This document shows positions 2,376 to 31,141 of a DNA stretch of 64,000 nucleotides, one piece after another. This DNA is from Procambarus clarkii (lineage: Eukaryota > Arthropoda > Malacostraca > Decapoda > Cambaridae). Where the stretch lies: the NCBI RefSeq assembly GCF_040958095.1, contig NC_091160.1:36443736-36507735 (forward strand). Reading direction: 5' to 3'. The notes under the pieces are model-generated. The model was not told where the DNA came from. It saw only the letters and a program-made list of their open reading frames with translations, and made no database searches. The position numbers were made by a program, and so were the translations under genes. The stretch's first letter is position 1; each line of letters begins with the position of its first letter.

Positions 2376-2439
2376 TCAAATCCTAGGCCACGCAAGTAGG
2401 ACCTTCTCCAGAGGAACAGTCACCACACTTCCCTGCAGC
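2376..2439 (-). CDS. Unrecognised gene, probable last exon 8
   Basis: After the acceptor ATGTTTCAG the exon adds one base to complete Arg, then reads LQGSVVTVPLEKVLLAWPRI and TGA. The hydrophobic beta-strand pattern fits as the end of the domain begun in exon 7. It could instead be an unrelated short exon; another frame is also open for 18 codons. Confidence 0.45.
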
Positions 2440-5400
2440 CTGAAACATAATAGTGCAAGGTTTATCCAATAATGGAACTCATAAATGTATGATTTATATT
2501 TTCAAAAGAGTACAGTATAGTAAAACCCTTAAATTGTAAATAATTCATGGATGGTCAGTTGGCCATGAAAAATTAATGAGATGGAAAAAGGGGAAGAATG
2601 CTACTATGATGTGACTTCAGTGTCTAACATGACTGAGATCCTGGATTTCATGTACAGTATTACAAAAGTGTCAGTTGTATTAATCATATGGTACTTATTC
2701 TAATTATATGAGTAGTGATATTCTTTCAATGCCATTGGTCTTTTCCTATCTTGTTATACTTTTTTTATTTTATTTATGGTTCTACTGAATTCCACCATTA
2801 TGGCAGCGCCTCTCTCTCTTACTCCCTCTGTTCCACTCAACCAGGTACACTTGATATGAACAATGTTGACCAAACCACACACTAGAAAGTGAAGGGACGA
2901 CGACGTTTCGATCCGTCCTGGACCATTCACAATTGACTTGAGAATGGTCCAGGACAGACCGAAACGTCGTCGTCCTTCACTTTCTAGTGTGTGGTTTGGT
3001 CAACATATTTCAGCCACGTTATCGTGACTCCTCGTCTGCATAAGAACAATGTTGGCCCAACAGTGTGCCTAATGAGATTTCGGCCCAATTTGCCTATATC
3101 TCAATTGTATGGTGACTATATTTCAAGAAGCACATCAACAAACTGGAAAAGGTGTACAGACATGCAACAAAATGACTGTTGAAACTGAAAGACATGAGCT
3201 ACAAGGAGAGGCTAGAGGTGTTAAATATCTCAAAGCAAGAAGATAGAAGAAAAGAGGAGATATGTCCACTAAATACAAAATAGTAATGGGAATTGACAAA
3301 ATTGATAAAGAATTCTTTATATAAAGAATTCTGGTAGATAGTTGGAACAAGTGAAGTGAGGTGTTGGAGGAGACCAAAACCGTCAGTAATGTAGTTTCAA
3401 AGCATCATATGACAAAGAGTACCAAGAAGATTGGACACCTCAAACATAGCTCTCATCCTGTAATTAGACTTACGTAATTACTTGACTCCATGAAAATCAC
3501 ATAAGGGGAGTCTCTATAAATGCAAATATTTCTTAACTTAGACCTATCCATGTACCCGAGGCCTACCTCGGAGGCCTGGTCGAGGACCGGGCCGCGGGGA
3601 CGTTGAGCCCCAAAATCATTGTTAGGTAACCGGACCATCCTACGTTTGTCCTGTACTCCAAACTATTTCTCCTGAAAAGCTCCAAGCATCTGACTTCCTA
3701 CTTTGGAGAGACAGACAAAGCCATTCTCTTTAATAGATGAGGTAGGAAATGTTCAACGTGGAATGAAAGTTTTTGCCAAAAATTTTAGTCATCACTTTTT
3801 TAATGTGAACAACTTAAAAGCTGTACATTTAAAGGGTGACTTTAAAAATGGTAACAAATTTTTGGGAGTGTAGGTAATATATAAGTAAGAGAGTTATTAG
3901 CATTTTCCATGGTAAACTTTTATAATATGACAAATTTCTAAGGGTACATATGAAAGTTAATGATTTAATAATGTGACATTTATAAAGGACACAATTACAA
4001 GTTAACAGTATTGACTCAGTAAGTGTAATTTAGAAAATAACAAATTATGTAAATAATATAAAAAGTGAACAGGGGTAAGTCCTAGGTAGATAACATGTGG
4101 GGAAATTGGAAGTGTGCAAATGAATGGGGTAACAGAAACACAGTTGACAAAGAAAGTAAGATTAAAGGGCACCCATACAGTCTCTGAACCTAATTAACAT
4201 CTTTGCAAGAGGGTGTGCAATGGGGGTTCTGAGGGAGCTTCCCCTTCATGCAGGAGAGCCTAACAAGGGTGGCAAGGAAATGCAACAGGGAAAGAGGAGG
4301 GAGACAATCACGGAAGACCTGCAGAAGTCCACGTTCAAAAGAGTGACCCGGCTGGTTGCTAAAGCTTACTAGCTGAGCGTGAACTAGGTGAGCTGACTAG
4401 GCTCCATCCCTTTACCCATGCAAATCAGAAAGTGTTGCAATTTCATCACACTGTATATATAGAGGACCTTAGCTGTAACACAGAATTTTGTTTAATACAG
4501 TATTTGAAGGCAATGAAAATGTATGTGCTAAACCTATAGTACATATGTCCAGTGTCATAACCCAGTAAGAGCCAGAGCGGCCAGGGAGCCGGTCGGCCGA
4601 GCGGACAGCACGCTGGACTTGTGATCCTGTGGTCCCGGGTTCGATCCCGGGCGCCGGCGAGAAACAATGGGCAGACTTTCTTTCACCCTATGCCCCTGTT
4701 ACCTAGCAGTAAAATAGGTACCTGTGTGTTAGTCAGCTGTCACAGGCTGCTTCCTGGGGGTTTGAGGCCTGGTCGAGGACCGGGCCGCGGGGACACTAAA
4801 GCCCCGAAATCATCTCAAGATAACCTCAAGAATCTCAAGAAGTAAAATCTCTACTTGTTCCCACCTGTTAGGCTCACTCAATAGGATAACTGTCACTGAA
4901 GCAGATGAAACAGGAGCAGAAGTGTGATGAATTTTGTCATTTATCTGCCATGAAGACTTCTGATTTGTCAGGACTCTAGCTACAGCCACGCCTCCTCCTG
5001 GAGCTAGCACCTTCACCTGCTGGCCAGGGGAGAGCTGGTCCCCACGGTATGGCAGGTATGGACGTCCACTGCTAGTTCCTGTGGCACATAATTACTGTTA
5101 GCAGAGTGAGTATCCTCTCGTCACTAGGATACAGAGAAGAAGGGGAAGTGAAGGGAGGGGGTTAGAGAGAGGAGGGAAGGATGAGAGAAAGGGGAATAAG
5201 GGAGATGGAATGAAAGAGGGGGGTGGGGGGGGAGAGCAAGGCGGTGAGGGCATTAGGAGATGGGGAAAGAGGGGATATGTTTAGAAAGAGAGGTAGAATG
5301 GCGATGGGGTAAAGATAGACTATTCCTAGGCACTACTTGGTATGCTTTTTAGTATGAAATGTAGCAAAACATTTCTTTCTTACTGTCATAAAAAGTAAAC

Positions 5401-8400
5401 CCTCCTAAATACACATTAAAAGTGTAACCTTGATTTTGGTACTGTAACCATCTCGGCTAAAGTAATTGATCTTATTTGGGTTCAAAGTCTTTCACTGGGT
5501 CAATTCTGATAATGACCAAATAAAGCATTCCCTAGTCATCGTGGATGAAATAGAAAGATAAACTAACTAAAAAAGCTGTAGACCCTGAGCAAATATTTGT
5601 AAAACATATCTTGGCAGAAAATAAAATCTATTATATACTAGTGAAAATAAACATTACATAACACATGGTCAGTCACAACATGCATAATAAAATAAAGCAA
5701 TTCATATTATTCCTGTAAACTTAATGTAACTAACCTACACTAGCAGAATCAGCTTCACTTCTCCAAGCACTGAACCCTCCCTGGTGTGAACGTGTCCTTC
5801 GTCTTCGCTGTTTGTGGTGCTTTCTATTTGGCATATCCCAATCTGTAGACACACCGATTTTTGTTGACTGGGGGGTTAATGGGGTTAACCTGATTACCTG
5901 TGAAGTCTTGAGACAAAATTCAGTAATGGATGGCACTTATTTACACCATTTATCAACTCCATCAGTTTATTTACACCATTCTCTGGTTGCTGGCTTAACG
6001 TGCACACGATGGTGTTGTGCCTGTTCCCCTGACACATCTGCTCTATGCAACACTTTTAACATGCTCTCTTCTTACCACTCTGTCAGCTTACTTTCCCCCA
6101 TTATTAGATTTTTCCAGTAGCGTATTGTATTGTCAGATTTCCATCAGCTCGTGCTAAGTTTTAATACGTATCAATTATTAGCCTGTTCCTTGTCATTCAT
6201 TACAATATATTCATTCTTACAGGACCTCTAAATCTTCCGCCGCCAAGCTAATCAAGTATCAAGGATGACCCCAGCCTTTGGTTCGGCCAAAACAAACCTA
6301 ACAATAACATCCTGCATGCTTCTGTTCTCAGACTATTAATTTCAGGGTCTGTTATCTTTCTCAGTGATATCACTACACATCTTTCCTTAAAATCTAATTT
6401 GTCCCCTTTTACTCCATTAATGTGGATGTTGTAGAAATCCTTAGCACAGTGTCCTCCAAATGCTGTAAAATAAGATTACAGTCCGGCCCTGGATGCTAAA
6501 CCTCCCATATAAAGCCAGCCCCTCTTTGCCAAACACATTCACAGTTCTCTTAATTTTCTGTGATGTCCTTTCGTACTAGAAAATGACTCCTGGTGTTTTA
6601 TTTGATTTTATTATTTATTTATTTTATTTCATCAGAAAGTTAAGAAACGACAACATTTTAGTCCGTTCACAACTTGATAATGGTCAAGGACGGACCAAAC
6701 GTCGTCGTTTTTTCACTTTTTGATGTGTGGTTTGGTCATCACTTGCATACAATTCTCAGTACCCCTCCTTCAAAGATCTCATGTTACTTCTTCAGAATAA
6801 TTATTATGCCAGGTCTTTTCTATTACTCCGCAATGATCCCATATGCAGTACACCACACATTATAATTTGCAGCACTTTACAGTACCTTTATTTACTTAGC
6901 CCATTTTACCATTCATCATTATTTCACTTATGGCAACTGATTTATATAACTGAGGTCAAACTGAACTGGCACTTGCTTGATATGACCAAGCAGCTACCAT
7001 TGCTAGAGATGCCATTCATATTTACCCTTCCTCCCAAAAGATAATTCCTTTCTCAGATTTCTACTGATATTCATAGTGCAAACTGCAACCACTGCAATGA
7101 TAGATGTTGGCTACTACACACAACAAATTGTGCCATTAAGCATAACATATCCCTGTGGTATTCCTGCTATAATGAAATAAGGAGTGGGAATTGACTCCGG
7201 CTAGGTTAAATATCAGAAACACAATTTACTCGTGGAAACTTAATGGAACACCGACCTGCACCTTACTGTCACACTTGCATTGTTCCACTTAGTCACTTAC
7301 CTGCTACAGTTATCTTGAGGTTATCTTTAGATGATTTCAGGGCTTAGCGTCCCCGCGGCCCGATTCTCGACTAGGCCTCCTTTTTGTTACACCCCCCCAG
7401 GAAGCAGCCCGTAGCAGCTGTCTAACTCCCAGGTACATATTTACTGCTAGGTAACAGGGGCATTAGGGTGAAAGAAACATTTTGCCCATTTGTCTCCGCC
7501 TCCACCGGGAATCGAACCCGGAACCTCAGGACTACAAATCCGAAGCGCTGTCCTCTCAGCTGTCATGTGCTAATTTTCAACATAATAAATTTTGTTTTCT
7601 CATTATTCCTTTGAGTCATTGGTCCATCTATAAAATACTTGGTGAATCTGCCTCCTTTGACATTGAGGATCTTATGTCTTTCAGGATACCAGTAAGTGAG
7701 GTGGACACATTTCTTACTGGCATCCTGAATGATGTCCAGAAACTCATACAGTATATATTCTGTAACACAGACAGTGTTATATTGCCATCCTATACACATG
7801 TTCCTTGATAAAATCCTTAGTGAATCTGACTACTTTGACATCGAACATCTTATGTCTCTCTATTCATATTGGCATTCTGTATGATATATAGGAACTCCTG
7901 AATATTCTCCAGAAATAGCCAGTGCAATGTAACTATTGTATACAATACTGTACTGGTTTTGCATTTTATTTGGATAATTACTTATTTACTTAAACTGTAC
8001 CATGTATATCTCATAATACAAGTACCATACTATTATGAATACAGTACAATACCTTAAATTATTTACATGTCTCTGTTCTGTTGACCATAACCTGGAAAAT
8101 ACTGCCTCTATCCCATTTGTTTACAGTATTTCCGTCGGTATTCTCATATATGTTATGATCATATCTCTTCTGGTCCTTTCTCCTTCTAATTTTGTTATAT
8201 TAAGTTCATTTAGTATGTGCTCTAGCTATCTATCCTTAGCAGTCTCATTTCATATCTTTGTACATTCTAAATTTTCTTCTTGTACTTTATCAGATGTGGA
8301 TTTCATTGTTGATGCATAATATTCTAGGACGGATCTCAGATATGATTTGCATACAATCATAAAACATTTCTTATATAAGTTCCTAAATGCCATCCTGATG

Positions 8401-11400
8401 TTTACCAACTTTTCATGTGCTACTAATCTAATGTTGTTTACATGTGCCACTGATGTAAAGGCTGTTGTTATATGTACTGGTACCTATCCAGGTCCTTTTA
8501 ACTTTTTTACTCTTTTCAACTTCTTTGTGTTTGCTACTGCTCTTTAGGTATAGATGGAATGGTTTGAATGTTGTGCATGCCCGTGTTTATATGAAGAACT
8601 CGTCAGTGAGAGGTTGAGAGGAGCAAGACATTAGAGGAGCTCTCGGTTGCCTCTGCCAAATTGTAGTGATAGCTAGGTCGTTGCAAGTTCTTTAAATCGC
8701 TTCTAGCAAATATATCACATTATTATTATTTATTACAATAAACAATTATAAGCGAGCATTATATTTATTATTATTATTATATACTGTATCAGGTTAGGAA
8801 AGCCTGATATATTTGCCAGAATATATCAGGCCAGTTATATTTCTCAAGTTGTGGGTCAAAATAAACAATGATCCCTCAGATTGAGGGGACCAAATAAATC
8901 AAGATCTCAAAGAAAGAGTGAACAAAATAGAAGACAACCTCATAAATGAGGGTAAAAGCAAGATCTCATAAGTGGAGAAGTGCATGATCTACTTCAAAGT
9001 TTAAGAAATTATTTTCTTGACTTGTGCCACACAAGCCACATGAAAAGAAGTGTTTCTGTCTTTTATATCATTACAGTATTGTCTATTTATATTTCGAGCC
9101 ATGGCTATATATATATACTTTCATGATATAGCATGATCTATGCATTTACTAGAGGTGGAGACATACCATGGATACGAGGGTAAATATTGTAAATGTTGGG
9201 GTCGAGTGGGGTGGTGGTGATGTGTTCAGCTTCATCAATGAGGGAGTCCGTAGATCCACCACTATCACTCTCATCCCAGTACAGCCCCTTCAGCCCAACA
9301 CTGCTGCCACTGAAGCAACAATGACACAATATTAGTATGCACTTGCAAACACAGCAATATGATAGAATGGCAAAGCTGGAATGTTAACTTGTTAGATAAG
9401 ATCATTATCAGAAGAAAGTGCTAAGCCAAAATTTCTGTACTGTACTCACCTAGTTGTGCTTGCAGGGGTTGAGCTTTGTCTCTTTGGTCCCGTCTCTCAA
9501 CCGTCAATCAACTGTTGTACGGATAGAGCCCTTGTGGGCTCTATCATATCTACATTTGAAACTGTGTATGGAGTTTGCCCCCACCACATCACTTCTTAGT
9601 GCATTCCATTTGTTAACTACTGACTGAAAAAATTCTTTCTATTGGCTCTGTGGCTCATCTGGGTACTGTACAGTACTAAGTTTCCACCTGTGTCCCCTTG
9701 TTCGTGTTCCACCCATGCTAAAGGTTTGTCTTTGTCCACCCTGTCAATTCCCCTGAGAATTTTGTAGGTGGTTATCATGTCTTCCCTCACTCTACTGTTT
9801 TCCAGGGACATGAGGTTCAGCTCCTTTAGCCTTTCCTCGTAGCTCATACCTCGCAGTTCCAGGACGAGTCCAGTGGCATACCGCTGAATCTTCTCTAATT
9901 TTGTCTTGTACTCACCTATTTGTGCTTGCGGGAGTTGAGGTTTGGCTCTTTGGTCCCGCTTGTGTTGGTCCCATATCTTGTGTTTAACTAGGTATGGACT
10001 CCAAGCTGGAGCTGGATATTTCAGGATTGGTCTGACATGGTGGTATACAGGGTCCTGAACGATTCCTTACACAAGTTTCTAAAGGCAGTTCCTATGTTGG
10101 CCAGTCTAGCATATGCCGCTGATGATATTCTTTTGATGTGGGCCTCTGGGGACAGGTTCGGTGTGATATCAACCCCCCAGATTTCTCTCTCTATTTGACT
10201 CTTTCAGGATTTCATCTCCCAGATGGTACCTTGTGTTCAGCCTTCTGCTCCCTTTGCCTAATTTCATTACTTTACACTTTCCTGAGTTGAACTTTAGTAG
10301 CCATTTTCTAGTACATATGGAAGGGATATGAGGACAGGACAGGAGGAATCCATATGGAAAGGATATGAGGACAAGACAGGAGCTAAGATATGAGGATGGG
10401 ATGTGAGAACAGGGTATGTGGGAGGAAAATATAATTTGTTTTGTCAGACAGGCTGCCTGCGTGTGTATATACTGTATTTGTTAGGCATATATTGAGGCCC
10501 CTTCCCCCCAAAAACCGACCTTTCCCAGAATGTAATCCCACAACAGTTGACCAGCTCCTGGGTATCTTACCACTAGGTGAACAAAGGCATTATGTGAAAT
10601 GAAATGTGCCCAACCAATTGTCCCACCCGGGATTCAAGCCCTGGATCTACAATTGTGTCTAGAACGAACTCAACTATACTACCAAGGCCCTGTCACTGCC
10701 ACTGAACTGTCAGCATGTGAAAGTGATTCATAAGGACTGTCCGTATATGTAAACTTTATAATAACAATTAATTTTGTTCGGGGACAAGTAGCCAATGTAT
10801 ATAAACATGTTAGGCTTATATCCAGGTCCTCATCCCCCTCAAGATCGAACTACTGACCTTCTCCTGGATGCAACCCCACAAGCTAACTCTTGCATTGGAG
10901 TTGCTTAGGGGGGTAGAAATAGCCTAAGCTACTCTATCCCTTTGAGATGTAGTTCTTTCTTGTCTCAATAAACATACTTGAACTTGAACCTGCATTGGTA
11001 CCTACTTACTGCTAAGTGAATGGGGGCATTAGGGATAGGAAATGGGCCCAACCATTTTTATCCCGCCTGGGATTCCAACCCTGAATTCTCGATTGCGAGT
11101 TGAGAACGAAATCTGTACTGCTAAGATCTTTTTAGCACTCTGTACTCCTTTTGCGATACAGCTCAGGATGAGTATAGGGTGCACAACAAACTAGGTGCTG
11201 CACTAGCAGCAGCAGTCAAAACATACTCAATATGCGAGACGAGTGTGCTGTTTTCTCTGCATCCTAATTTTGTGATATATTTTGTCCATGTGTCTCACCG
11301 CTCTAATGGTAAACTCAACATTGTTTTACCAATATATACTAACATTCAAACTGTAAGCTACATGTTCAATTTATGCCAAATGTGTTTTATTTAAACTGCT

Positions 11401-11620
11401 ATTCACCATACTTGTTTAGTACAGCCATTATTGTAAAGTGATGCACAAGTTGTGGCGAGTGAAGTCTATATAATTCTAAGTCCATGCCCGAAACGCTATG
11501 CATCTTAGTGGCTTTAGGTATTGCATGTACTAGCTCTATGAATCCAACAATATGTTTGTAACTCTGCATCTATGTATGTACTTTTCCCAAATGAATTATT
11601 ATTATTATTATTATTATTAC

Positions 11621-11672
<52 letters not shown>

Positions 11673-14600
11673 TAAGTAAAGTTGACACACGAGTGAGTTG
11701 ACTGGAAAGTGTTTGTTTGGGTGTGTGTGTGTGTGTGTGGGGGGGGGGATACTCACCTACCAACCATCACGTCAAAGGCAGAGTGGGCGTGTGTTGGGCC
11801 TGGGTTAGTGTGAGAGAATGATGAGGATTGACTAGGCACTCTTAGGTGGCTAGAGGCTGGATGTTGCAGGTCTGGAAGGCTGGCGGCACTGCGGATACTT
11901 GACCCACCTGCACCTGCCGACCAAAACAAGTAATTACATACACTTTATTATTTTAGGATGCACAAGACAGTAGCAGTTACTCTGGAAATAAAGATGCATT
12001 TAAATATATTTAAATCAAATTAAATGTTATAACTGACAAATTATAATGTTCAGGAACATTTAAAAATGGATTTGGTAGTTCTGAAGTCACCTAACAATGA
12101 CTTTAGTTGAGGCTACTCCACGTCCCTCACCACCCAAGGATCACTGGGTGGTCCTGTGGTCCCGGGTTCGATCCCGGGCGCCGGTGAGAAACAATGGGCA
12201 GAGTTTCTTTCACCCTATGCTTTCACCCTTTCACCCTTTCACCCTATTCTTTCACCCTTTCTTTCACCCTGTTACCTAGCAGTAAAATAGGTACCTGGGT
12301 GTTAGTCAGCTGTCACGGGCTGCTTCCTGGGGGTGGAGGTCTGGTCGAGGACCGGGCCGCGGGGGACATTAAAGCCCCGAAATCATCTCAAGATAACTAT
12401 TGTACATAACCTCACAATAACCCACTACCCAACATGTATAGGCGTAGAACATTTAAAAAATTATGGACAAGCCAGAATTCTGAGGAAAGGCATAGGGTTT
12501 GTGGATAAGTTAACACTGGCTGAGGGTAGTTTTTGTTGGGCGTGATGGAGCTAACAAGAGAACTCAGGAACAAGGAGAGTTTTGTTTAGTGTGAAAACGC
12601 GGTCTGTATGCGTCCCCAGATCTAAGACATCTTAATAATACATTAAACGATAAAGAAATGAACATTATAGAAACATGGAAATGTATGGAGCTACATATAA
12701 CTATGGAAGACATACTTTAAGAATCACAATTATGAAGGCGACAATTACAAGTCGCAGATAATTACGAAACCTCAAGTTCATGTATGTTTATTGCGACAAG
12801 GAAAAAAGTACATCTCAAAGGGATAGAGTAGCTTAGGCTATTTCAACCCCCCCCCCCCCCAAAGAAGCCTCGAGTACTTTTTTTTTTTTTGAGATATATA
12901 CAAGAGTTGTTACATTCTACTTACATAGGTGACAGGTAATTATGAGAAGTTTAGTAATTATTAAGGGAGATAATTAAGATAAGTGATTATTAAGTGAGAT
13001 AAGAGAAGTTAAGCGATTTTTAAGTGAGATAAGAGAAGTAACAGGTCAGTGATAATAGATCATAACAGGTACGTATGGCATCAATATAGCATACATGTTA
13101 GTATAACAAGCACATATATGCCACTCATAACAACGACACAGGTACGCGTATATCAGCTATAAGTATAACTCGTGTTTAATAGTAAGTATAACTCTTGTGA
13201 GCATGACTCGCGTAAGTATACGTAAAGGTAACATTCCACATAACTATATAGTTGTGTCCACTAACAACACACGACAACAGTTGTGCTGACTCCATGATGC
13301 TGCTAAATAAACTATCCCTCTGAAGCAAAATTAAATTAAATTAGATGTAGTAGTAGTAGTGTCCACTCATGACACATGACAGTCTAGACAATCTTGAGCA
13401 AATATGCCTTTAACCTGGGCAAAATAACTTCCAAAGGTTTGTAAATGATTTCCAGCTCAGGGACCATTGCCATATTACATATCCGAAATCCGACAAAATC
13501 GCATTCGGACAACCCCAAAATTGATTTAAAAATGTATCCGACTGGAAGGTGAAACTGGACAGCGGACAGGCGAGGGTAAACATTTCACACAAAGAAGCAG
13601 ACGGTATAAATGAATCCAGTCGCAGTTGTCTGAGCGATGTTGATGCAGCAGCTGGAAAAGGTTTCAAAAGCATCGCCAGAAAAGGTTTACGGACAACTAG
13701 ACCATTGGAATAAAGAAACGACAGAATGCAGCCGATGCAATGCCAAGGTATAAAGTGCTCGTTTAAATGAAGAATCTGTCGGGGAATCCATCACCAAGTT
13801 ACATCACTGCAGAAAGTACTCTGGATTACATTAACAAATCTTAATTGGCTATTATCAAGAGCATTTGGGGGAGAGGATCCTTTCATAAAAATAGGTGCAA
13901 TTTGGCAGAGCGTTATGCAAGGTATTTGCCCAAGAGGATTACTATGTCCATTACAGATAGAGTTGTCTATTTAGCTACACCACAACTTTAGATCAAGAAA
14001 CCTCACTGACGTTCTCCGCCATCTTGGTTTACTGTTCGTCGTTTGCAGAGGTAACACGCTTCGAAATAAACATGGCGCTAGCAAATGGCTTTGCTTCTTT
14101 GACTGTTGATAAAAACACTGCAGTACTTCTAACAGCAGATAACATGGATCATGAAGTCTTCACTTTGGATGGTAAGAATATATTTAACGGAATGAGTAAA
14201 ATTGCGGCAGTGACCCCCGAAGATCAAGATCCAGTTTTCTATTCGTAGGCGTAATGTTAGTGGCAGCGAAATTAAGAAGGCTGCAACAAGAGAATATAGA
14301 AACGCACAAGGCATGTCAAGGGGCATCTTATTTTGCGAACTTCCAGTACCCATAATCACCATAAATAAACTTAGTCTTCTCTGATAGATCTTTTCACCAG
14401 AAGAATCAGGTCCAAATTGGTCAGGGACAATGCAAGCAATTCACTGTAGATCAAGTATCTCTGTTCAGTTACAAATACATCATGTTCTGATTGTTACCAA
14501 CACTCGGTTATTGAAGCCGCTGGAAGAGCGGCAATAATGCTGTTGTCTGACTGCCAAACTGGAATCTGTTAACGCATTACGTCATCGAATGTTCATTGAA

Positions 14601-17600: not shown

Positions 17601-20334
17601 ATTCTCCCAAGTTTACCTGTTGTAGATAGCATATTCGACTGTAAACTGTTACTCCCTGTTAAGTCCTTTACTTGCTTGTATCATGACCAGTGTAACATTA
17701 TCTACTGCAGAGATATATACACCGAAAGGTGTATTCTGCTTCTGGGTGTATACATACACCCAGAGTGTACTTTAGTCTTGGACATGTACAGGGCTAAAGT
17801 AATCATGCTGGTTGGAGTGTAAGCCCTTGTATGGCCGCAGTTACAAGTTGATAGGCCTTAATGGGGGGGTAGAAATAGCCTAAGCTACTCTATCCCTTTG
17901 ATATGTATTTCTTTCTGGTCTCAATAAACATACTTGAACTTGATAGGCCTTAAGCCTAACACTACCACTACAGTATTGTAATTACGCTCCTTCTCAGTTG
18001 TAACTTGATCACAAAGCTCAGGCAAATGAAAACCTTTTTTATCTAGTTCAACATAAATATAAATTATTTATCTTAGAGAAGATTGGGGTCCTTCCTCGGC
18101 TCATTATGTGACTAAGTTTTCTGGCACCGTCCGTGTACATGGACGGGTTGTAGCCAGGAATGATATGAGCAGCATAATTAAGTCAACTTACTGAATTCTT
18201 GTCACTCTTATACCCTAACCCTAGGCACGAGGTCTCACTAACATACGGACATTCATAACTGCCAACACACGCACATGTACGTTAGAACTTACATGCTCAC
18301 ACTGACATATTCAAAGTTACCCTAAATGGAAGCGTTACATGAAAAGTGATACAGGTTCCTGGGGCAGAGATTACAGCTGGCAAGATATATCAAGAAGCGC
18401 ACGTAATAATGATGCGGAACAGACCATCCCTCAAAGCTACTTATTATAAAACATTCTGGTAAACAATACATCAAATGACAACATAATATACACGACGTTT
18501 TAAACTTCCATTGCAGCACTAGTAAACCTGGCTACTTATTAGGCGTAATTAGAATTTATAACAAGATCGTTTCCACACCAGAAACCCAAATTAAACAACG
18601 GGTGGAGATGACCAAGAAGTCCTTAACATTCACCCCCCCACCCACCCAACCCCACAAACAAGACCTTTGGAAGGAAAGGAGTTATCCCTGTTCTCTGTAT
18701 TATCTAGGCTTACTATCCAATACAGTATAACTGAGCTGGTATAATCCAACCGTAAGAACCTGCAGCAAGTACCTAGGCTTTATTATTTTTATTTTTTCTC
18801 AACACATTTTATACTTTAATCTCAATTAGTATTAAGTTTTAGACTTTAATGTTTTTCCTGCCCGAAACGCTTTACGTAATAGTGGCTTTAGGCATTGTAT
18901 GTACTAGCTCTATCTATAAATCTATCAATTTTTGTATCACCTCTTGTATGTATGTACTTTACCTGAATAAACATTTGAATTTTGAATTTGAATTTTGAAT
19001 ATATGGCGTAGTGGCGAAAACTCCTCTAGCAGGACCAGCTAATAGTGCCTGAAGGGACTTACTAGGACGCGAAGGGACCTCTGGTGAGTGTTGTATTGAT
19101 CGTGGAGGAAGATATTACTGATATGAGAGAGGTGGTGTTGCTAGCTCCGGCCGTCCCCCCTTGTGTGATACTATCAGTTAACACCACCTGTGAGGGGAGC
19201 ACACCCTCGCCGCTCCTACACCCTCCTACACTTTATTTTATTGACGTACACCCGCACTTATACGGCTACCCGTAGAGATTATATGAACACTTACAAAAAT
19301 CCCCATCTCGCAGGATGGTGTGTGATACAGGAACATATACTGAGTTGGACAGTAATAAACTTTGGATGATTATGAGTGTCTACTACACATTTGTTTCACT
19401 TAGTAACTCCGCCAACCATTACAGGGATACCACAATACTAGGGAAAGAGATAGATAAATATATAGACGCACGCATACAGATAGATAGATAGATAAGCGGG
19501 GGAAGGAAAGGGGGAGGTCTCTGGCACACACTTGACCTCTGGTTCATATTGTTCCTTACATGCTAGTTACTTAGTATTAATAAATGAGTATAATCTTAAT
19601 GAATAAAAATAATAAATTGTTAAAATAAATTGAGTTTCTAGACTTATGCAGGGCTTCAGATGTAGGACAACAGCTCTTAGCTCACAGTTTTACTAAGAAC
19701 AACAATGACGTCCCTACAGAACATTTACAGCCCCGCTCCTGTGCCAGGTAAGTCCACTACGGGCTCACCATAGCCCGTGCTACTTGGAAATTTGTTCCCA
19801 GTACCTGAATCTTAAACAACAAAACGACGTCCCATAGTGAACCATTACCTTGGTACAAGCCAAAGGTTTATTTAGGACTGTTATTTTTTGTTTAAAGAAA
19901 AAGAGTGAGAGAGCAGTTATCATCAACATACGGAGCCCAGCTGCCAAAGCAGATGTCACCAAGACCACACGCAAATGTATTGACTCTAGAGTCCTCTGCA
20001 GTAATCGCAGGAGGACTCATGCAAACTACTTATGCCAAGACAGAGGAGGGAAGAAGAGTGAATTATATCCATCCCTTGGCCGCCGCCTTAATCCAAATGG
20101 TCGTGCAAGTAGTTCTATAGTTCTATCCGGTGTCGCCTCCAGATTTTACAATTTGTATGAATTTTAAAATCTTCATTTATGTCCATATATTATAAAATTA
20201 AATTTACAATATCGATGGTCCATGTCGATGAAATGTTTATACCAACAACATTGCTGAGCTGAAAATTCTGGATTAGGTAGCAATGTGATTGACTGCCTAA
20301 TCGCATCTTAAAGTGTTCAAACTGAAATCCCGAT

Positions 20335-20418
<84 letters not shown>

Positions 20419-21150
20419 AAATATGACCGAAAAAGTAAGATTAATAATTCTAACACGAATTTTCTCAATCTTTCGTACATTTCTTTTCACTGTTGGAGGT
20501 AAATCAAAAATCAATTCTCCAAAATTCATTTTTATTTCTAGTCTGACGCGACACGAGCGCGTTTCGTAAAACTTATTACATTTTCAAAGACTTTAGTTTA
20601 CAAATACACAACTGAATAGAACTTACGCATCTCCGATTTTATATCTACATTTGAGAGAGGTGGATGGGGTGAGGTGGCATTAATAGGGTATTAATTTCAT
20701 CAACACAAGACAGAACAAGAGGTGGCATTAATAGGGTATTAATTTCATCAACATTTTCATTTCATTAATTTCATCTGTTGATGAAATTAATACCCTATTA
20801 ATGCCACCTCTTGTTCTGTCTTGTGTTGATGAAATTAATACCCTATTAATGCCACCTCACCCCATCCACCTCTCTCAAATGTAGATATAAAATCGGAGAT
20901 GCGTAAGTTCTATTCAGTTGTGTATTTGTAAACTAAAGTCTTTGAAAATGTAATAAGTTTTACGAAACGTGCTCGTGTCGCGTCAGACTAGAAATAAAAA
21001 TGAATTTTGGAGAATTGATTTTTGATTTACCTCCAACAGTGAAAAGAAATGTACGAAAAATTGAGAAAATTCGTGTTAGAATTATTAATCTTACTTTTTC
21101 GGTCATATTTAATAATATATGTCTACAGGAAAGACTGCTACCAAAATATA

Positions 21151-21232
<82 letters not shown>

Positions 21233-24200
21233 ATATAAAGTGTGTTTATATATATTAAATATTATCAAATCCCAAACCCATAAATAAATCCCCAAATATT
21301 GAACTATTCCTTATATACAAAAATGTTAACGAAATCTAATCTATAAAGGATTGTCAGGATCTTAGCCTAATATACAATAATCTAACTTCATAAAATCTCG
21401 GTCATTATACTGTATATACACACCCTATAGCGAAATTCAAACAAGGCTAATCCATACCTGACTAATCTGTCAAATCTATCACAGCCTATTCCAACATCCT
21501 AATTTATCCTTCAACATTAATTTTCAAAAAAACTATGAAATAAACTTTTTGTCTGTTAATAGCTTTATATATATAGTGTGTCGAGGTAGTGCATGACTGC
21601 AGTAGTTATGTACAGTGTCATTAGTGTGTCCCACTGGGAGGCCGACAGATGGCAGACAAGCCGGTGGAGTGTTGAATAAATGATGTGTGCGATGAGTCAC
21701 CTCCATGGCAGAAATGCCTGACTCATACACAGTAACTCATATTCAAGTTTCAGTTTAAACTTGCCACGGGAGACATCTCCCGTGACATCTCTGTCACGCG
21801 TCACAGATCTCCAGTATCATATATTGATACCGGTAATGGCTCAAAAGGGCCACCACTTACGGGCTATTCATGCCCGTGCCACCTTTTGGATGGCTTAATC
21901 TTCATCAACCAATCAATAAACTTGCTCCACTTACGTCTAACTCTCCTGTGAGATATGGGAGTAGAATAGGATAGCAGCACAATGCTGCGTGTACTCAACC
22001 TTGTTAAAAGTCTACTTACCAGCACGGTGGTGGAAGAAAGTGTTGGTATGGTGGAGCCTAGTTAGGTCTCTTGCACTGCCGCCATAACTGACCCCTGCTG
22101 CTCTGTCTCCTGGAGGCGGTCCATCCCGCGCCCCCAGGTGAGGTCGAGTGGTGAAGTAGGCCAGGGAGGAGGACGACTGAACGAAGGTAGAGTTCAGCAC
22201 TGGGTACTTGTAGTGGATAGGTGTGGCGGATTGATGGACTGGTGATTGGTGGTAATTGGGGACGGGTGGATGGTGGCAGTGATGTTTGACGGGAGACTCA
22301 TGGTGATGGGGTGGATTCACGGAGGACTGTTGGCGGCGGGGAGGCGGGTCTTGTACGGAGCCAGGGTGGATGTGTTGGCTCAGGTGTGGGGCAAGATATG
22401 CCTTATGTCGCAACCCATTCTGCAGTTGCCTCAGATACATTGTATTCTCGTGTCCTTGCACTAGGTTATATAGGTTCCTTTGTAGGGCAGCCAGGTCGGC
22501 ATTGGCAGGGGAAGGTGACGGGCCCCTGGCAAGTCTCTGCGACCAGGGGCCACTCAGTCGGTCTGGTAGTGGTGTAAATGGGGGCTCTGTCTGTCCATTG
22601 CGCAGGGGAGAGCGGCTGTATTTGGCGGCCGAACCAACGGTGACACCTTCTCCTTCATTGAATTTATAAGTCCACGATGATGCCATTTTCGACGTCCGTT
22701 TCGTCTGCGTTGTTTGCGTGCCGGCATTCTGCAGTCTCACGTACCGTAAGTGCGGTTGGTGGCTTTCCGCATCTCTCTCAGGGTGCTGATCACTGGTCGC
22801 TGACCCTGGTGGGTGCTGTCCCTGTCTTCTTCCACCAACGCTAGCCCTCAACTTCTTATCGCCTCCGTATTGTCCAGACAGAAAACTTCCATTTGTCTCA
22901 TATCTTCTCACATCACTACCTGCCGAAGTTTTGCCGACATCCGCAAAACTTACACCTCTTTCATCACCTATCACACCTCTGTTTTTGCCAACGTCTGTGT
23001 GAGCTCCACCGTATAAAAGCCTGCCTTTGTCACCACCTTTGTAAGTTCTACCATAAAAATGTATGTCTCTGTCATCACTTTTATGAGTTCTACTATCTAA
23101 AGTTCTGTTTGTGTCACCACTTTTATAAGTTCTACTATCTAAAGTTCTGCCTCTGTCATCACTTTCAAAAGTTCTATCATCGAATGTTCTGTTTGTTAAC
23201 GTTTTGCTCCTGTCACTGACATTGTATGTTTTGCTTCTGGCATTTCTTCTTGAAATTCTGTCTCTGTTATCATCAATTGATGATCTGTTTCTGCCATGGT
23301 CATCACCCGTTAAAGTTCTGGCTCTGTCATCACCTGTTAAAGTTCTGGCTCTGTCATCACCTGTTAAAGTTCTGGCTCTATCATCACCCGTTAAAGTTCT
23401 GGCTCTGTCATCACCTGTTAAAGTTCTGGCTCTGTCATCACCTGTTAAAGTTCTGGCTCTATCATCACCCGTTAAAGTTCTGGCTCTGTCATCACCTGTT
23501 AAAGTTCTGGCTCTGTCATCACCTGTTAAAGTTCTGGCTCTATCATCACCCGTTAAAGTTCTGGCTCTGTCATCACCTGTTAAAGTTCTGGCTCTGTCAT
23601 CACCTGTTAAAGTTCTGGCTCTATCATCACCTGTTAAAGTTCTGGCTCTATCATCACCAGTTAAAGTTCTGGCTCTATCATCACCTGTTAAAGTTCTGGC
23701 TCTGTCATCACCTGTTAAAGTTCTGGCTCTGTCATCACCTGTTAAAGTTCTGGCTCTATCATCACCTGTTAAAGTTCTGGCTCTATCATCACCAGTTAAA
23801 GTTCTGGCTCTATCATCACCTGTTAAAGTTCTGGCTCTGTCATCACCTGTTAAAGTTCTGGCTCTGTCATCACCTGTTACAGTTCTGGCTCTATCATCAC
23901 CTGTTACAGTTCTGGCTCTATCATCACCTGTTACAGTTCTGGCTCTATCATCACCTGTTGAAGTTCTGGCTCTATCATCACCTGTTAAAGTTCTGGCTCT
24001 ATCATCACCTGTTAAAGTTCTGGCTCTATCATCACCTGTTAAAGTACTGGCTCTATCATCACCTGTTAAAGTACTGGCTCTATCATCACCTGTTAAAGTT
24101 CTGGCTCTGTCATCACCCATTAAAGTTCTGGCTCTATCATCACCTGTTACAGTTCTGGCTCTATCATCACCTGTTAAAGTTCTGGCTCTGTCATCACCCA

Positions 24201-27200
24201 TTAAAGTTCTGGCTCTATCATCACCTGCTAAAGTACTGGCTGTGGCACTTACTACGCCAGAGGTGGCCTCGACACTTTCACTGCCACTTTGAATTTCTGT
24301 TGACTTACTCATAACTGAAATGTACTCACTATAGTTCAACAAGCTTTTTGGATGGTCGCAGCTCTTTGGCACATCACATTGTTCACTAGGATCACTGTTA
24401 GGGTCTCGCGAGTCACTTTCATTGTCTTTATCTTCGTCACTCTTAGTGCCTGTGAGATCAGCTTCTCTCACAGTGACTTTTAGACTGTCTTCCAGTGGTA
24501 TTGCACTAAAGGAATCTGTAGGTATTTCTCTATCCACGGAAGAGGTAATGGATTCTGCCCTATCTAACTCATGCAAGTTGCTTCTTTCACTCTCATCTTT
24601 GTCACTTTCCGGAGGACTGCAAGCTTCATCTTCTGCCACATCATAACGAACACCATATTTGCATGCAACACCTTCTGTCGAGTCTTCACTATCAATATTC
24701 CTTATGTCTATTGGAATGTGTTCATCTTCGTGCTTTAAAGATTCGTACTGGAAGTTATCATCTTCTGCAATGTCAGGTGTTATGCGAGAGTCACTGGTCA
24801 GCGCTGCCACGGTAACAGTGCCATCCCCCTGAAGTGTCACTCTGTGTCTTGCTTCACTTTCGCTGATGTCTTCATCAGACATGGCTTGGTCCCCCTCCGG
24901 AGGGCCTTTGACATGCACCTGAGAGCTGTCCAAGGAAGAATCAAATCCTTCATTATGAGACTCGACACTCACTAATGTCTCGGACACCAGACTCACATTC
25001 AGTCTTGGAGGCGATGGCACTGGCACCTTATTTATCAAACTTGATGGGCCTGAACATGATCTAGGAATGGCTGTTCTTGGTTTAGGCTCAGGTTGTCGCC
25101 TTTCAGAACTGCTGGATGTTCCAAGATTGAACTCAGAATCATGCTCTTCATCAGAAGAGTGTAGCTGGAGCTTTGATGGTTCGAAGACAACCTCGGGGTG
25201 GCTATCATTGGAAGTCAGCGATACGAGCACTTCCTCCAAGGCTCTGGGAGACCCAACGTCGTCCATGCTAGAGCTGCGACTTTCAAAGGTGATAACGCAT
25301 CCGTAATTTCCTGCAATGTCTGAGTCACTAACTTCGCAAGCTCCCTCCTCGTCTTCAAAATCAGAGTCCGACGGAGCCAATATTTCCTTTACCAAGCGTT
25401 CTTGTGCCAAAGTGTCAAATCGTAGCAGGTTCAACTCAGTTTTAAAAGTAGCTCTTCTGGTTGAGGAAATATTAGCAAGAAGATCCTCATATGATGTGCT
25501 GGAAGCATTTGATCCATCGAATCCCTTAGCTCCTGCCTCTCGCCTGCATCTCCAGGCCTCTTCGCCAGTTAAGTCTTCTATGCGGAGAGATCTATCTCGA
25601 GAACTGAACAAGGATTTTTTTCGTCTGGCACCTTCACCGGCGTCTTCTGAGTCCTGTGAAGTTTCTCCTCCAGCAGCGTAAGGACTGATGTTATTGGGTG
25701 TTTCTTTATTATCTGGAGACGGAGGCTCACTGCCATCCTCAAACCCAAGACAAACACCGCTGCTTGTTGAAGACAGTCCAGCCAAGAACTTTGAACTAGC
25801 ATGTGACAAATCAACAGCAACTTGGAAAGCACGTGAGAGATTTGGCGATGATATTGATGCTTCCTTTTGGTCTTTGAGGTTATTAAATGATGTGGATGAT
25901 GCCCGGAGCTGGCTGTGAGATCTTCCTCGGGTTAAGCTTCTAGGGAGGACTCTGGTCTTGCCATCTGATCTAGCAAAATTCTTTTGAATGCTTGAAGACG
26001 CTCCCTCTTCTTTTCCTTCATCTCCAGTGTAAATCAGTGAGGTGGAAGAAACCCATTTACGACCTCCGAGGGTTCCAAACTGGTGATAGGGATGTGAGTC
26101 TTTGTGTGTGGAGCCGACGAGTCTCTCTAGGTGATCGGAACTGAGGTAACGCAGTCGCAGCTCCGGTACATCGCTCCAGAAAGGGGAAGTTTGGTCTGAC
26201 TGCAAGAACAGCTCGACAGCAAACTTGTGTGGCACGATGTGGAATGGGTCCACCTTGTAGTCCCTCTCTCGCACCTGCAGGCTCCCGCTGATCGCGTCAC
26301 GTACCTAGCAAAGAAGCAGTATAAACTTTACCATTTACTGATGTTATACAGATACTGTATCTCCAAAACTGATTAAAAAAATCAAGCTTGATACATATAA
26401 AGTGACTGGATGAAAATGTAGCATACAACGGACCTTGTCTTTGATGAGTATGAAGCCGGTGTGGAGGCCACAAGGTATGGGTGTAGGTGTGGCCTCGTAC
26501 CAGCCCAGGTGAGGCTGCCAGGTGAGGCACACTCGTGTCCCCGTCACAGAGGTCAGCACCAGCCACACCTCCGGCGCCCGGCAACCCACCGTCCGGCACC
26601 ACCGGAACCTGTACCAACAAATGATCATATATGCAGCACCTACTATATATCTTGTGTCTATATCAATAACCCTCGAATTTATACTGGTATACGCTACATC
26701 CAAGGCCGAACATCACATTAATCAGCAGGTGAGGATTTTCTTGCTAGAGTGCATTTACTAGGAAATTTATTTTTACACTAATTAAAATATCTGCCGCAAA
26801 TATGTAATGTTTAATATGAGTGTTTCTCCGGCCTGAGTACACATCTCTCACGTAGGTCTGTATTATTGTATTATGTATTGATGCCAGCTCCTGTAAAAGC
26901 TGTATTATAACACTCCACGACTCACCAAGGATGTTCATGGTCTAGCGGGAAGCTTGAGACATCTTCACCATTATATCTTTTACTTTATTTTTATATCTAA
27001 TGCTTAGATAAATTAGGATACAAGTTTACACTGAGGAGCGGTCGTTAGGGGGATGCCAGGTTAAGTGTTCATAATTAATTAGCTTATATTAATTTGTCAT
27101 CTTAATTATTTTCTTTGAGTTCCCTTGTGGGAACATACGCCAGATGGTTCAATGTTTACCCTACACTCAGAATCTGGCGAAATGTATATGTTTATCTCTC

Positions 27201-27387
27201 AGAATGTTCGGTAATATGTTTATTGTTTGTGATATGTGTATATGTATTAACACGATGTACTGAACGGGGTGAGAATAGCTTGAGCTGCCTCATCCCTTTG
27301 TGTGTATTTTACCTCAATAAACTTATTTCAATTTGAGAGTGTGGCCACATACTTGATCTCAGGCTGGAAGCTGCCTGCAGGTATCAT
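2376..27387 (-). CDS. Unrecognised large Ser-rich repeat protein, 8 coding exons
   Basis: Joined exons: 27387-27353, 26608-26434, 26304-22020, 11913-11757, 9309-9167, 5842-5735, 5078-4865, 2439-2376. All junctions keep frame, with GT/AG boundaries, giving 5181 nt or 1726 residues. The start ATG has a good context (CCGCC before it) and an in-frame TGA 18 nt upstream. Residues 1-130 look folded (W-, H- and L-rich, for example LTWQPHLGWYEATP). Residues 150-1490 are mostly Ser/Asp/Glu-rich and probably disordered, with about 35 nine-residue repeats at about 759-1073 and a His/Pro-rich stretch near 1410-1450. Residues 1636-1726 look like a small beta-rich domain (RGDQLSPGQQVKVLAPGGG), perhaps SH3- or Tudor-like. 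No signal peptide or membrane segment is evident. I do not recognise the family and assign no function. Exons 1-5 are strong; exons 6-8 rest on phase agreement and coding look. Confidence 0.75.
2864..3006. repeat. Inverted-repeat element (GACGACGTTTCG family), copy 2
   Basis: A compact 143-bp palindrome from TGTTGACCAAACCACACACT to its reverse complement. It lies in the 3' flank of the large minus-strand gene. Confidence 0.8.
3110..3425 (+). mobile_element. LINE 3'-end fragment
   Basis: Frames include YKERLEVLNISKQEDRRK, the C-terminal non-LTR polyprotein block also seen at 51890-52255 on the other strand. Frameshifted and 5' truncated. Confidence 0.6.
3556..3632 (+). mobile_element. SINE tail fragment
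   Basis: GAGGCCTGGTCGAGGACCGG and GCCGCGGGGACG followed by an AAAATCATT-type tail, matching the 3' part of the SINE at 4581-4842. Confidence 0.6.
4581..4842 (+). mobile_element. tRNA-derived SINE
   Basis: The tRNA-like head has the B box GGTTCGATCCC inside a paired CCGGG/CCCGG arm, and an anticodon-like loop CTTGTGA. A unique body (TTACCTAGCAGTAAAATAGG) and the tail CTCAAGATAACCTCAAG follow. It begins 23 bp downstream of probable exon 7 of the minus-strand gene. Confidence 0.85.
4865..5078 (-). CDS. Unrecognised gene, probable exon 7
   Basis: The acceptor GTGCCACAG completes Gly from exon 6. The exon reads TSSGRPYLPYRGDQLSPGQQ onward and looks like a small beta-rich domain. The donor GTGGGA at 4864 is not strong. 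The open frame continues past it into the SINE at 4581-4842, which would supply an alternative stop codon. Confidence 0.55.
5100..5290 (+). repeat. Purine-rich tract
   Basis: About 190 bp almost entirely of A and G (GGGAAGTGAAGGGAGGGGG and similar), in the intron before exon 7 of the minus-strand gene. It is not a regular microsatellite. Confidence 0.7.
5735..5842 (-). CDS. Unrecognised gene, probable exon 6
   Basis: The acceptor GTGTCTACAG opens an exon that completes Asp with the exon 5 phase, then reads WDMPNRKHHKQRRRRTRSHQ, a basic segment that could be a nuclear-targeting patch. The donor is GTTAGT in phase 1. Other acceptors at 5866 and 5882 do not keep the frame. Confidence 0.55.
   Translation of the reverse strand: MGICQIESTTNSEDEGHVHTREGSVLGEVKLILLV
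6635..6740. repeat. Inverted-repeat element (GACGACGTTTCG family), degraded copy 3
   Basis: Contains AAACGACAACATTTTAGTCC and CGGACCAAACGTCGTCG ending in GTGTGGTTTGGTCA. The left end is lost or mutated. Confidence 0.55.
7311..7570 (-). mobile_element. tRNA-derived SINE, degenerate
   Basis: Reverse orientation: the tail TTATCTTGAGGTTATCTTTA comes first and the B box remnant GGAATCGAACCC near the end. It shows the same body as the SINE at 4581 with a different tRNA-like head. Confidence 0.8.
7622..7910 (+). repeat. Repeat family with CTTGGTGAATC core, two tandem copies
   Basis: Two blocks (about 7622-7760 and 7805-7905) share the patterns CTTRGTGAATCTG, TTTGACATYGA and CTTATGTCT. A third relative is at about 14665-14780. 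Short frames (ILGESASFDIEDLMS) suggest a fragment of a coding mobile element. Confidence 0.45.
8250..8520 (-). mobile_element. LINE fragment
   Basis: The minus frame VNIRMAFRNLYKKCFMIVCK resembles the LINE segment at 47450-47560 (LANIRTAFRNLCKESFR). Truncated and frameshifted. Confidence 0.6.
9167..9309 (-). CDS. Unrecognised gene, coding exon 5
   Basis: Begins by completing a Ser codon from exon 4, then reads GSSVGLKGLYWDESDSGG and continues as an acidic Ser/Thr segment ending PNIYNIYPRIH. The acceptor is GCTTCAG and the donor GTATGT, leaving phase 1. Confidence 0.75.
9449..10320 (-). mobile_element. LINE 3' region, with an internal tail insertion
   Basis: The minus-strand frame reads YEERLKELNLMSLENSRVRE and YKILRGIDRVDKDK, matching the LINE at 46985-48015. 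At about 9905-9958 an extra copy of the element's own 3' end (GTACTCACCTATTTGTGCTT) is embedded in the body. Confidence 0.75.
10480..10695 (-). mobile_element. tRNA-derived SINE, old copy
   Basis: Contains CAGCTCCTGGGTATCTTACC, TAGGTGAACAAAGGCATTA and the head remnant GGGATTCAAGCCC. Reverse orientation. Confidence 0.65.
10810..11125 (-). mobile_element. tRNA-derived SINE interrupted by a 92-bp insertion
   Basis: SINE halves 10810-10898 and 10991-11125 are separated by a foreign 92-bp segment. TGCATTGG occurs on both sides (10891-10898 and 10991-10998), a target-site duplication. Confidence 0.75.
10899..10990 (+). mobile_element. Short LINE-tail insertion with target-site duplication
   Basis: GGGGGGTAGAAATAGCCTAA leads to CAATAAACATACTTGAACTT. 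The same sequence recurs at 17865-17945 (plus) and about 12772-12860 (minus). The flanking 8-bp TGCATTGG direct repeats mark an intact insertion. Confidence 0.75.
11480..11690 (+). repeat. LINE 3' tail followed by (ATT)n microsatellite
   Basis: CCCGAAACGCTATGCATCTT and a TATGTACTTTTCCC tail run into about 80 bp of ATT repeats, which are probably the element's own expanded 3' end. Confidence 0.7.
11757..11913 (-). CDS. Unrecognised gene, coding exon 4
   Basis: Reads AGGSSIRSAASLPDLQHPAS onward. The acceptor (CGGCAG) supplies the two bases that complete a Gly with exon 3. The donor GTGAGT leaves phase 2. It lies about 10 kb from exon 3 across a repeat-filled intron. Confidence 0.75.
12130..12394 (+). 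mobile_element. tRNA-derived SINE
   Basis: Truncated head with an intact B box (GGTTCGATCCCGGGCGCCGG), a body with a short CTTTCACC duplication, and the tail CATCTCAAGATAA. Same family as 4581-4842. Confidence 0.85.
12772..12862 (-). mobile_element. Short LINE-tail element, reverse copy
   Basis: Reverse complement of the 92-bp element at 10899-10990 (TCAAGTTCATGTATGTTTAT, then GGGATAGAGTAGCTTAGGCT), ending in a C-run. Confidence 0.7.
12920..13230 (+). repeat. Degenerate short tandem-like repeats
   Basis: AAGTGAGATAAGAGAAGT units recur at 12990-13040, and GTAAGTATAACTC-type units at about 13160-13220. No coding frame. Confidence 0.45.
14024..15777 (+). pseudogene. Decayed gene with Cys-rich tail, split by a LINE
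   Basis: Fragments in several plus-strand frames. At 14070-14245 one reads MALANGFASLTVDKNTAVLL onward. At 14565-14665 another reads SVNALRHRMFIEKVAAATW, and at 15600-15777 a third has CKMKCATSRCKCKHNGSPCS then an acidic end DDSDEED and TAA. The pairing of an LRHRxF-KVA block with a terminal C-x-C cluster resembles a family I recall as widespread in arthropod genomes and transposon-like, but I cannot name it. A LINE 3' end (about 14885-15535) separates the last two parts and there are frameshifts. No functional product is expected. Confidence 0.4.
14885..15535 (+). mobile_element. LINE 3' end with its stop codon and tail
   Basis: One frame reads GPSLWNSLPNELKSCPTFAI and ends YQISSS with TAG at about 15126, the usual last residues of several non-LTR ORF2 proteins. 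A 400-bp 3' UTR follows with CTTGCCTGAAACGCTGCGCA and a terminal AAATAAATAAATAAAC. 5' truncated. Confidence 0.7.
15783..15910 (-). mobile_element. LINE 3' tail, reverse copy
   Basis: Begins TATTTATTTATTTATGCATA and contains CTAGTACGCGCAGCGTTTCG, the reverse complement of the tail at 15420-15535. It starts right after the stop of the decayed Cys-rich gene. Confidence 0.7.
16370..16800 (+). repeat. Degenerate minisatellite with about 15-bp period
   Basis: Units of the form GGTAAGCATAACACA and GATAAGCATGAGACA recur many times, most regularly at 16630-16760. All frames are open because the period is a multiple of three; the frames are not evidence of a gene. Confidence 0.75.
17300..17405 (+). 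repeat. (GA)n/(GACA)n microsatellite
   Basis: GAGAGAGACAGAGAGAGACA and similar, about 105 bp of low complexity. Confidence 0.9.
17865..17945 (+). mobile_element. Short LINE-tail element
   Basis: GGGGGTAGAAATAGCCTAAG to CAATAAACATACTTGAACTT, nearly identical to 10899-10990. Confidence 0.75.
18850..18995 (+). mobile_element. LINE 3' tail
   Basis: TGCCCGAAACGCTTTACGTA, then a TATGTATGTACTTTACC tail and AATAAACATTTGAATTTTGA. Same tail family as 11480. Confidence 0.65.
19745..19820. repeat. Short dispersed repeat with hairpin
   Basis: CTACGGGCTCACCATAGCCCGTG forms a small hairpin followed by CTACTTGGAAATTTGTTCCC. A variant is at 21855-21930 (ACTTACGGGCTATTCATGCC). Confidence 0.5.
19905..20120 (+). 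other. Unassigned open frame with coding-like composition
   Basis: A 71-codon frame reads EQLSSTYGAQLPKQMSPRPH and later GLMQTTYAKTEEGRRVNYIH. It sits in a GC-richer island inside intron 3 of the large minus-strand gene. A second frame is also open here. I do not recognise it; it may be a fragment of a mobile element. Confidence 0.2.
20337..20410. repeat. (TA)n microsatellite
   Basis: A run of about 74 bp of pure TA that abuts the left end of the large palindrome at 20411. A second run (21153-21230) lies beyond its right end. Confidence 0.95.
20411..21118. repeat. 708-bp near-perfect palindrome between (TA)n tracts
   Basis: Starts ATATTATTAAATATGACCGA and ends with the reverse complement; the arms meet at about 20765. 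It includes an internal direct repeat (GGTGGCATTAATAGGGTATT) within each arm. The frame reading MNFGELIFDLPPTVKRNVRK occurs in both arms on opposite strands and may be a relic of a coding element. Confidence 0.9.
22020..26304 (-). CDS. Unrecognised gene, coding exon 3 (4.3 kb)
   Basis: A single 4285-nt exon open for 1428 codons, beginning VRDAISGSLQVRERDYKVD after the acceptor TTGCTAG. The donor is GTAAGT, leaving one base (phase 1). It holds the remainder of the N-terminal domain, acidic Ser-rich segments, the 27-bp coding minisatellite and a His/Pro-rich stretch. Its length and freedom from stops in such AT-rich surroundings make it the most secure part of the gene. Confidence 0.9.
23300..24240 (-). 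repeat. Coding minisatellite, 27-bp unit, about 35 copies
   Basis: Tandem 27-bp units encode TGDDRARTL variants, with L/V/S/M substitutions concentrated toward the N-terminal end (higher coordinates). The period is a multiple of three, so copy changes keep the frame. Units at lower coordinates are nearly identical, suggesting recent expansion. Diverged relatives (SDDRGRTLDSRTYK type) follow at about 23000-23300. Confidence 0.95.
26434..26608 (-). CDS. Unrecognised gene, coding exon 2
   Basis: Residues 13-70, a compact Trp-rich stretch reading FRWCRTVGCRAPEVWLVL and ending GFILIKDK. The donor is GTCCGT, a weaker version of the consensus. It ends in phase 0 and exon 3 begins in phase 0. GC content is higher than in the flanking introns. 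Confidence 0.75.
27184..27335 (+). mobile_element. LINE-tail-like repeat, copy A
   Basis: TTTATCTCTCAGAATGTTCG to ACCTCAATAAACTTATTTCA. A second copy of about 150 bp is at 32648-32800. It ends just below the first coding exon of the minus-strand gene. Confidence 0.6.
27353..27387 (-). CDS. Unrecognised gene, coding exon 1 (start)
   Basis: Encodes MIPAGSFQPEI plus two bases of a Lys codon, followed by the donor GTATGT. Those two bases combine with the first G of exon 2 to make AAG. The short exon is supported by this phase match, the in-frame upstream stop and the Kozak-like context. A possible acceptor (ATTACAG) lies just upstream at about 27425, so a 5' non-coding exon may exist. Confidence 0.65.
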
Positions 27388-27759: not shown

Positions 27760-28140
27760 AATGGAGAGACCTATGACAAGCCGCCAGCCGGGACGTCCAC
27801 CTCCTGGGGCTCGTGCGGCCCCCCAGGCTCTGCTTCAGGAGGCTGGGGTCGTCCATACCCTTGCTGGGGTGGTTCTTCTCCGGCCCCGACCACGGCCGTC
27901 TCCGGGTTGGGAGTCCCTGTGCCTTTTTTCACCAACTTTGAGGTCAATTCCGGAGCTATCAATTCCTGCGACGGCGCTGGAACCAATCGTATTGGCGTTT
28001 GCCTTTCCATTGGAGACTTTCGGCGCCGTGGAGAGGAGGGACTTGCTGCATGGGTGACAGCTTCTCCTCCATATCAACCTACCCTGGCTATGCCCCCTGG
28101 AGAGGCCACTCCAGACCGATAACCAGAGCGCAACTCCATA
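27760..28140. other. GC-rich island, origin unclear
   Basis: About 380 bp of markedly higher GC content than the flanks, open in two plus-strand frames. No frame resembles a protein I recognise, and it runs into a SINE. It may be a mobile-element fragment or a CpG-type island in the divergent intergenic region. Confidence 0.35.
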
Positions 28141-28189
28141 GTCTCCTGAGACTGATGGCTGCCCACTATACTGCTATGCCCAACCCATC

Positions 28190-30990: not shown

Positions 30991-31141
30991 GGGGGGTCAG
31001 TAATTCGGGGGGGGGGGGGAGGAGGAGGGATATGATATGCCTAACGTGAATAAATACAACCTGGTTGCCTGTCCCCCCGAAACAACAAATTATTTATAAT
31101 TACTTGCTCCTGACCCCTTTTGTGGCTTTTAACCTTTTCCG

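Follow-up and report, generated by a model that had tools for sequence, protein, structure and literature searches.

Large scaffold and adaptor proteins can have ordered ends that are joined by a disordered linker. Coding tandem-repeat proteins (PMC3995336, PMC6149999) carry in-frame arrays of near-identical units with higher-order duplication. Here we describe a gene of the crayfish Procambarus clarkii whose product shares features with both. It lies on the minus strand, at positions 2376 to 27387 of a stretch of 64,000 nucleotides (NCBI RefSeq assembly GCF_040958095.1, contig NC_091160.1, positions 36,443,736 to 36,507,735 of the forward strand), which is referred to as the window. By composition, the crayfish protein has the same ordered ends and disordered linker as the scaffold proteins, but it is without a recognised interaction domain. 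Its repeat array is likewise in frame, with near-identical units and higher-order duplication, whereas the repeat unit, GDDRARTLT with an RxRxxT motif, is tied here to no family.

Structure of the gene

The locus is very probably a genuine nuclear protein-coding gene. Eight minus-strand exons, with GT-AG at all junctions and without an internal stop, form an open frame of 1726 residues, and the entry phases of exons 2 to 8 are 2, 0, 1, 2, 1, 1 and 2. A preliminary description of this stretch, made by a model from the letters, had proposed eight exons that join without a phase error into about 1726 residues, and exactly the same number and span were recovered. The exon chain is seen directly in the DNA; from it we infer transcription as one unit.

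The candidate exon 1 (27353..27387, 35 nt) starts with ATG and covers codons 1-11 plus the first two bases of the next, followed by exon 2 (26434..26608), which encodes residues 12-70, in the Trp-containing head. Exon 3 (22020..26304) is 4285 nt long and encodes residues 71-1498 and the first base of codon 1499, comprising the remainder of the head, a serine/acidic middle and the repeat array. Beyond an intron of ~10 kb (22019 to 11914) lie exon 4 (11757..11913), found by coding score, splice sites and exon scans, and exon 5 (9167..9309), which contains STDSLIDEAE and was found by coding score and exon scans but passed over by the automatic gene-finder. Exon 6 (5735..5842, 108 nt) encodes a basic KHHKQRRRRTR stretch, exon 7 (4865..5078), found by the exon scans, the three first predicted strands of the tail, and the small exon 8 (2376..2439) the final part of the tail and the stop codon TGA. 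Possible polyadenylation signals on the minus strand are ATTAAA at 2067 and AATAAA at 1261. A model without exon 6 joins too, at 1690 residues, and exon 6 is therefore not demanded by phase alone; it is favoured by its own splice sites and coding score.

Coding evidence

Coding scores were obtained with a codon model trained on 1099 of those codons of exon 3 that lie outside the main array, and were compared with those of overlapping open intron segments of equal length. Exon 3 is open across its entire length and has a strong coding score. Exon 4 scored 16.1 and exon 7 scored 12.1, values reached by none of the 1218 and none of the 524 open intron segments of the respective length, and the score of exon 5 (8.9) was exceeded or matched by 0.35% of 1444 segments. 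Exons 1, 2 and 8 scored at intron level, with 29%, 14% and 16% of open intron segments scoring equally high. Exon 6 was left out of this comparison; the gene-finder and the two exon scans described below each chose it independently.

A phase-blind exon scan of the repeat-masked minus strand from 22000 to 2450 (19.6 kb downstream of exon 3) yielded 35 exon-and-phase rows. Exons 4, 7, 5 and 6 occupied rows 1, 3, 8 and 9, and the other rows above exon 6 overlap these exons. When the unmasked sequence was scanned at a score of at least 17 and overlaps were removed, four candidates were left; these are exons 4, 5, 6 and 7, and they form an in-phase chain from exon 3. More than one candidate was found in none of 300 second-order Markov sequences of equal length. 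A single candidate came from the plus strand of the region and another from its reversal, and the shorter stretch 41000-54000 yielded none on either strand. By arithmetic, phase agreement of exons 4-7 is expected by chance in one case in 81 if the phases are independent. We consider it very probable that exons 3-7 form one gene together.

Head, middle and tail of the protein

Hydropathy, charge and disorder propensity suggest that the protein is ordered up to about residue 120 and again in 1641-1726, and that most other residues are disordered. Order-promoting residues amount to 39% in residues 1-135 and 33% in residues 1636-1726, compared to 20-23% in two parts of the middle outside the array. 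Order-prone ends and a disorder-prone middle correspond by composition to a scaffold-type architecture, the exceptions being a predicted helical module and order-prone blocks scattered in the middle, including 221-260 and 341-380. The proposal of ordered ends around a long disordered, repeat-bearing middle thus stands for the most part, by composition, whereas the middle is not uniformly disordered, with a helical module predicted at ~311-370. Tryptophan is present in the N-terminal domain that had been called Trp-rich, and amounts to five residues in 135.

Single-sequence AlphaFold2 was run on residues 71-460 (positions 25135-26304). The prediction was of low quality as a whole, with a mean predicted local distance difference test score (pLDDT) of 43.7, but 53 residues were at 70-90. 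Blocks of residues 311-370 had mean pLDDT values of 70-84, and the middle therefore probably holds one small helical module (25378..25587, minus strand; about residues 310-379), which was absent from the features listed previously. Helices are predicted near 317-329, 342-347 and 351-379, and structural comparison of the helical region gave no match above noise.

The beta-like character ascribed to the tail is weakly supported. Exon 7 folded alone was predicted to contain three strands at a pLDDT of about 60, partly lower (mean 48.8), and strands in the head and the tail are also consistent with a simple propensity plot. The tail has putative short hydrophobic strands (QQVKVLA, VAVARVL, VTVILL and GSVVTVPLEKVLL) that resemble those of small barrels such as the SH3/Tudor-like domains, and the exon 7 model shows strands at the first three. 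As barrels for comparison we take Tudor, CAP-Gly and Pfam DUF4537. The tail differs from such barrels in that it has no Pfam family at E up to 10 and no significant PDB sequence match, and in that confidence in its fold is low.

Family search and copy number

No Pfam family was found above the cut-off for any part scanned, including the big exon, and for the head, as for the tail, none was listed at E up to 10, a search in which HMMER filters can drop weak matches. A sequence search of the PDB gave no significant match. That head and tail belong to no recognised family, as the preliminary description had stated, holds against Pfam and PDB, and the profile search found nothing significant. Unrecognised is meant here with respect to these two databases; the animal sequence searched was the gene's own genome.

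In that assembly of 4,027,284,227 bases, where the window is C11:36443736-36507735, searched with the head, the tail and a 345-residue middle piece as queries and with only the best candidates scored, all three pieces matched their own locus only (exons 1 and 4-6 and the array were left out of the search). Two extra matches of the middle piece contained stops and were at chance level (E 2.41). As judged from the pieces searched, the gene is single-copy. A transposon-derived gene was considered and is not supported, as no exon, save for exon 3 with its own arrays, overlaps any of the dispersed repeats of at least 60 bp found within the window, and the head, tail and middle piece match their own locus only, apart from those two chance-level matches.

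The repeat array in exon 3

Exon 3 harbours an in-frame 27-bp tandem array (23300..24241, minus strand; 34.9 copies and 95% match in Tandem Repeats Finder), which reads mostly (GDDRARTLT)n and accounts for some 18% of the protein. There are 34 full units, each exactly nine residues long, and the frame is held throughout; tandem units in an open exon frame agree with a coding minisatellite protein. Six positions of the 27-bp unit vary. Changes at position 9 leave the residue as it is, those at 18, 22, 23 and 26 alter it, and position 27 is A, G or T, which is mostly silent. In the order of the units, ABCABDDEEFCCCBBGEEBBGEEBHEBHEBHEBH, blocks of three and of five units have recently been duplicated, and the array is young.

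Residues 761-1072 include 66 basic and 70 acidic ones, and RxRxx[ST], the AGC kinase consensus, is matched 30 times there; most array units carry the RxRxxT motif. Less regular 42/84-bp coding repeats (23021..23196, minus strand) adjoin the main array. Less than 11 kb from the array are two further strongly self-repeating stretches (31138-32282 and 34040-34586), which are open in several frames (e.g. GMGMGSTTAH) and have no clear gene. Both were recognised from self-comparison and open frames rather than by Tandem Repeats Finder. Minisatellites seem to be common near this gene.

Proposed role and alternative explanations

We tentatively propose, at somewhat less than even confidence, that the protein serves inside the cell as a scaffold or adaptor in which a long flexible linker separates small ends that bind partners. 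The head, up to about residue 130, and the beta-rich tail (about 1636-1726), both of them small, would fold and be joined by the long, mostly disordered linker. Head, tail and helical module would each hold a partner, while the linker would set their reach and could be tuned by phosphorylation.

Several points weigh against this proposal and the gene model that underlies it. The scaffold or adaptor role is drawn from architecture. The exon 3 part of the head was not predicted to fold alone (block-mean pLDDT 29-38, with exon 2 missing from the model). When ten kinase, 14-3-3 and SH3 motif classes were counted outside the array, none was clearly above shuffled sequences; nearest to enrichment was Rxxx[ST]xP, with 3 matches versus 1.1 expected, a number reached in 49 of 500 shuffles. 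With respect to the exon chain, the codon model of the exon scans was trained on exon 3 of the same gene, and the score threshold of 17 was chosen after exon 6 was known at 17.1. Moreover, a crude gene-finder, applied to the unmasked sequence, reproduced exons 3, 4 and 6 in full and exon 7 except for its donor, which was placed 10 nt further along. It started from a different first exon (28010-27801), shortened exon 2 and read it in a different frame (26608-26501), and replaced exon 5 by 10031-9688 and exon 8 by 4695-4555. These last two substitutes lie at least partly within dispersed repeats.

The gene itself may be built differently. We consider it unlikely, though worth weighing, that the 5′ end differs, with exon 2 read in the other frame or the first exon located elsewhere, so that the Trp-containing head would not be as described. 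Exon 1 is one of 11 ATG-to-donor stretches that end in the required phase, six of which lie outside repeats, and the automatic model began with two different exons, as given above. Exon 2 can likewise be read without a stop in frame 0, which the exon 3 codon model ranks 5 among 21 rows, above the Trp frame at rank 15. Base composition, on the other hand, favours the Trp frame: its GC content at the three codon positions is 0.57, 0.57 and 0.78, compared to 0.65, 0.35 and 0.70 in the 60 opening codons of exon 3, and third-position GC in frame 0 is 0.57. The Trp frame also continues directly into the start of exon 3, which has a similar, ordered composition. A division into two transcription units, with exons 1-3 belonging to one gene and the later exons (in the preliminary description, exons 6-8) to another, is suggested by the ~10-kb intron between exons 3 and 4 and appears improbable. 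The donor of exon 3 is among the best 0.4% of the GT sites of the region and is preceded by no stop, exon 4 has a good acceptor in the required phase, and the phases are consistent through exon 7. The in-phase chain of exons 4-7 likewise makes a separate transcript for exons 6-8 less likely.

If the gene model is correct, the role may still be another one. It is a serious possibility that the gene is real but fast-evolving or lineage-restricted, that its middle is little constrained, and that the array is a passive minisatellite by-product without a signalling role. The recent multi-unit duplications in the array (...BBGEEBBGEEBHEBHEBHEBH), the two other strongly self-repeating stretches nearby and the near-chance motif counts outside the array are in line with this. 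Against it, the length of the array unit is a multiple of three with the frame kept across the whole array, and the big exon is unbroken across its 4285 nt and shows strong codon structure. Very doubtful is the idea of a family without described domains, confined to some arthropods, in which a fast-growing array of kinase sites in the linker, with a binding end on either side, would serve as a charge switch or as a phosphorylation counter that can be tuned.

Should head and tail prove to be conserved in other arthropods, the gene would represent an undescribed family, in which two or three small domains are still to be assigned. The in-frame 27-bp array could show whether the copy number of kinase sites varies between individuals and alters protein behaviour. 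Without orthologues, it would be one more uncharacterised large disordered protein. As an unknown, the gene is clean and well defined, but its kind is common.

Surroundings of the gene

Upstream, and head-to-head with the described gene, are the exons of a DEAD-box RNA helicase (34941-40588, plus strand; Pfam DEAD and Helicase_C), presumably DDX49. Beyond it lie the exons of a cullin including the neddylation domain (56037-61912, minus strand; Pfam), which we take to be CUL5-like. Of ten open frames scanned, five matched helicase or cullin families and five matched nothing. These neighbours give no clue to the function of the gene. Between the gene and the helicase, a GC-rich stretch with several open frames is located upstream of exon 1 (27771-28173, minus strand), part of which was used as the first exon by the automatic model.

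The open frames 9617-10066 (minus strand) and 47369-47830 (plus strand) are similar to each other and neither matches Pfam at E 0.01; we assume from their appearance that they are reverse-transcriptase fragments. The former sits within one of the gene's introns, where it led the automatic gene model astray. Self-similar stretches of ~250 bp were found at 4585-4832, 7310-7565, 12148-12397 and 60539-60784. ARAGORN called no tRNA in these stretches; they seem to be copies of a short dispersed element whose head, by eye, is tRNA-like. One of them lies about 32 bp past the donor of exon 7. Finally, the ~10-kb intron that follows exon 3 contains at 20337-21262 an inverted pair of near-identical, self-similar sequences beside AT microsatellites, as seen by eye.

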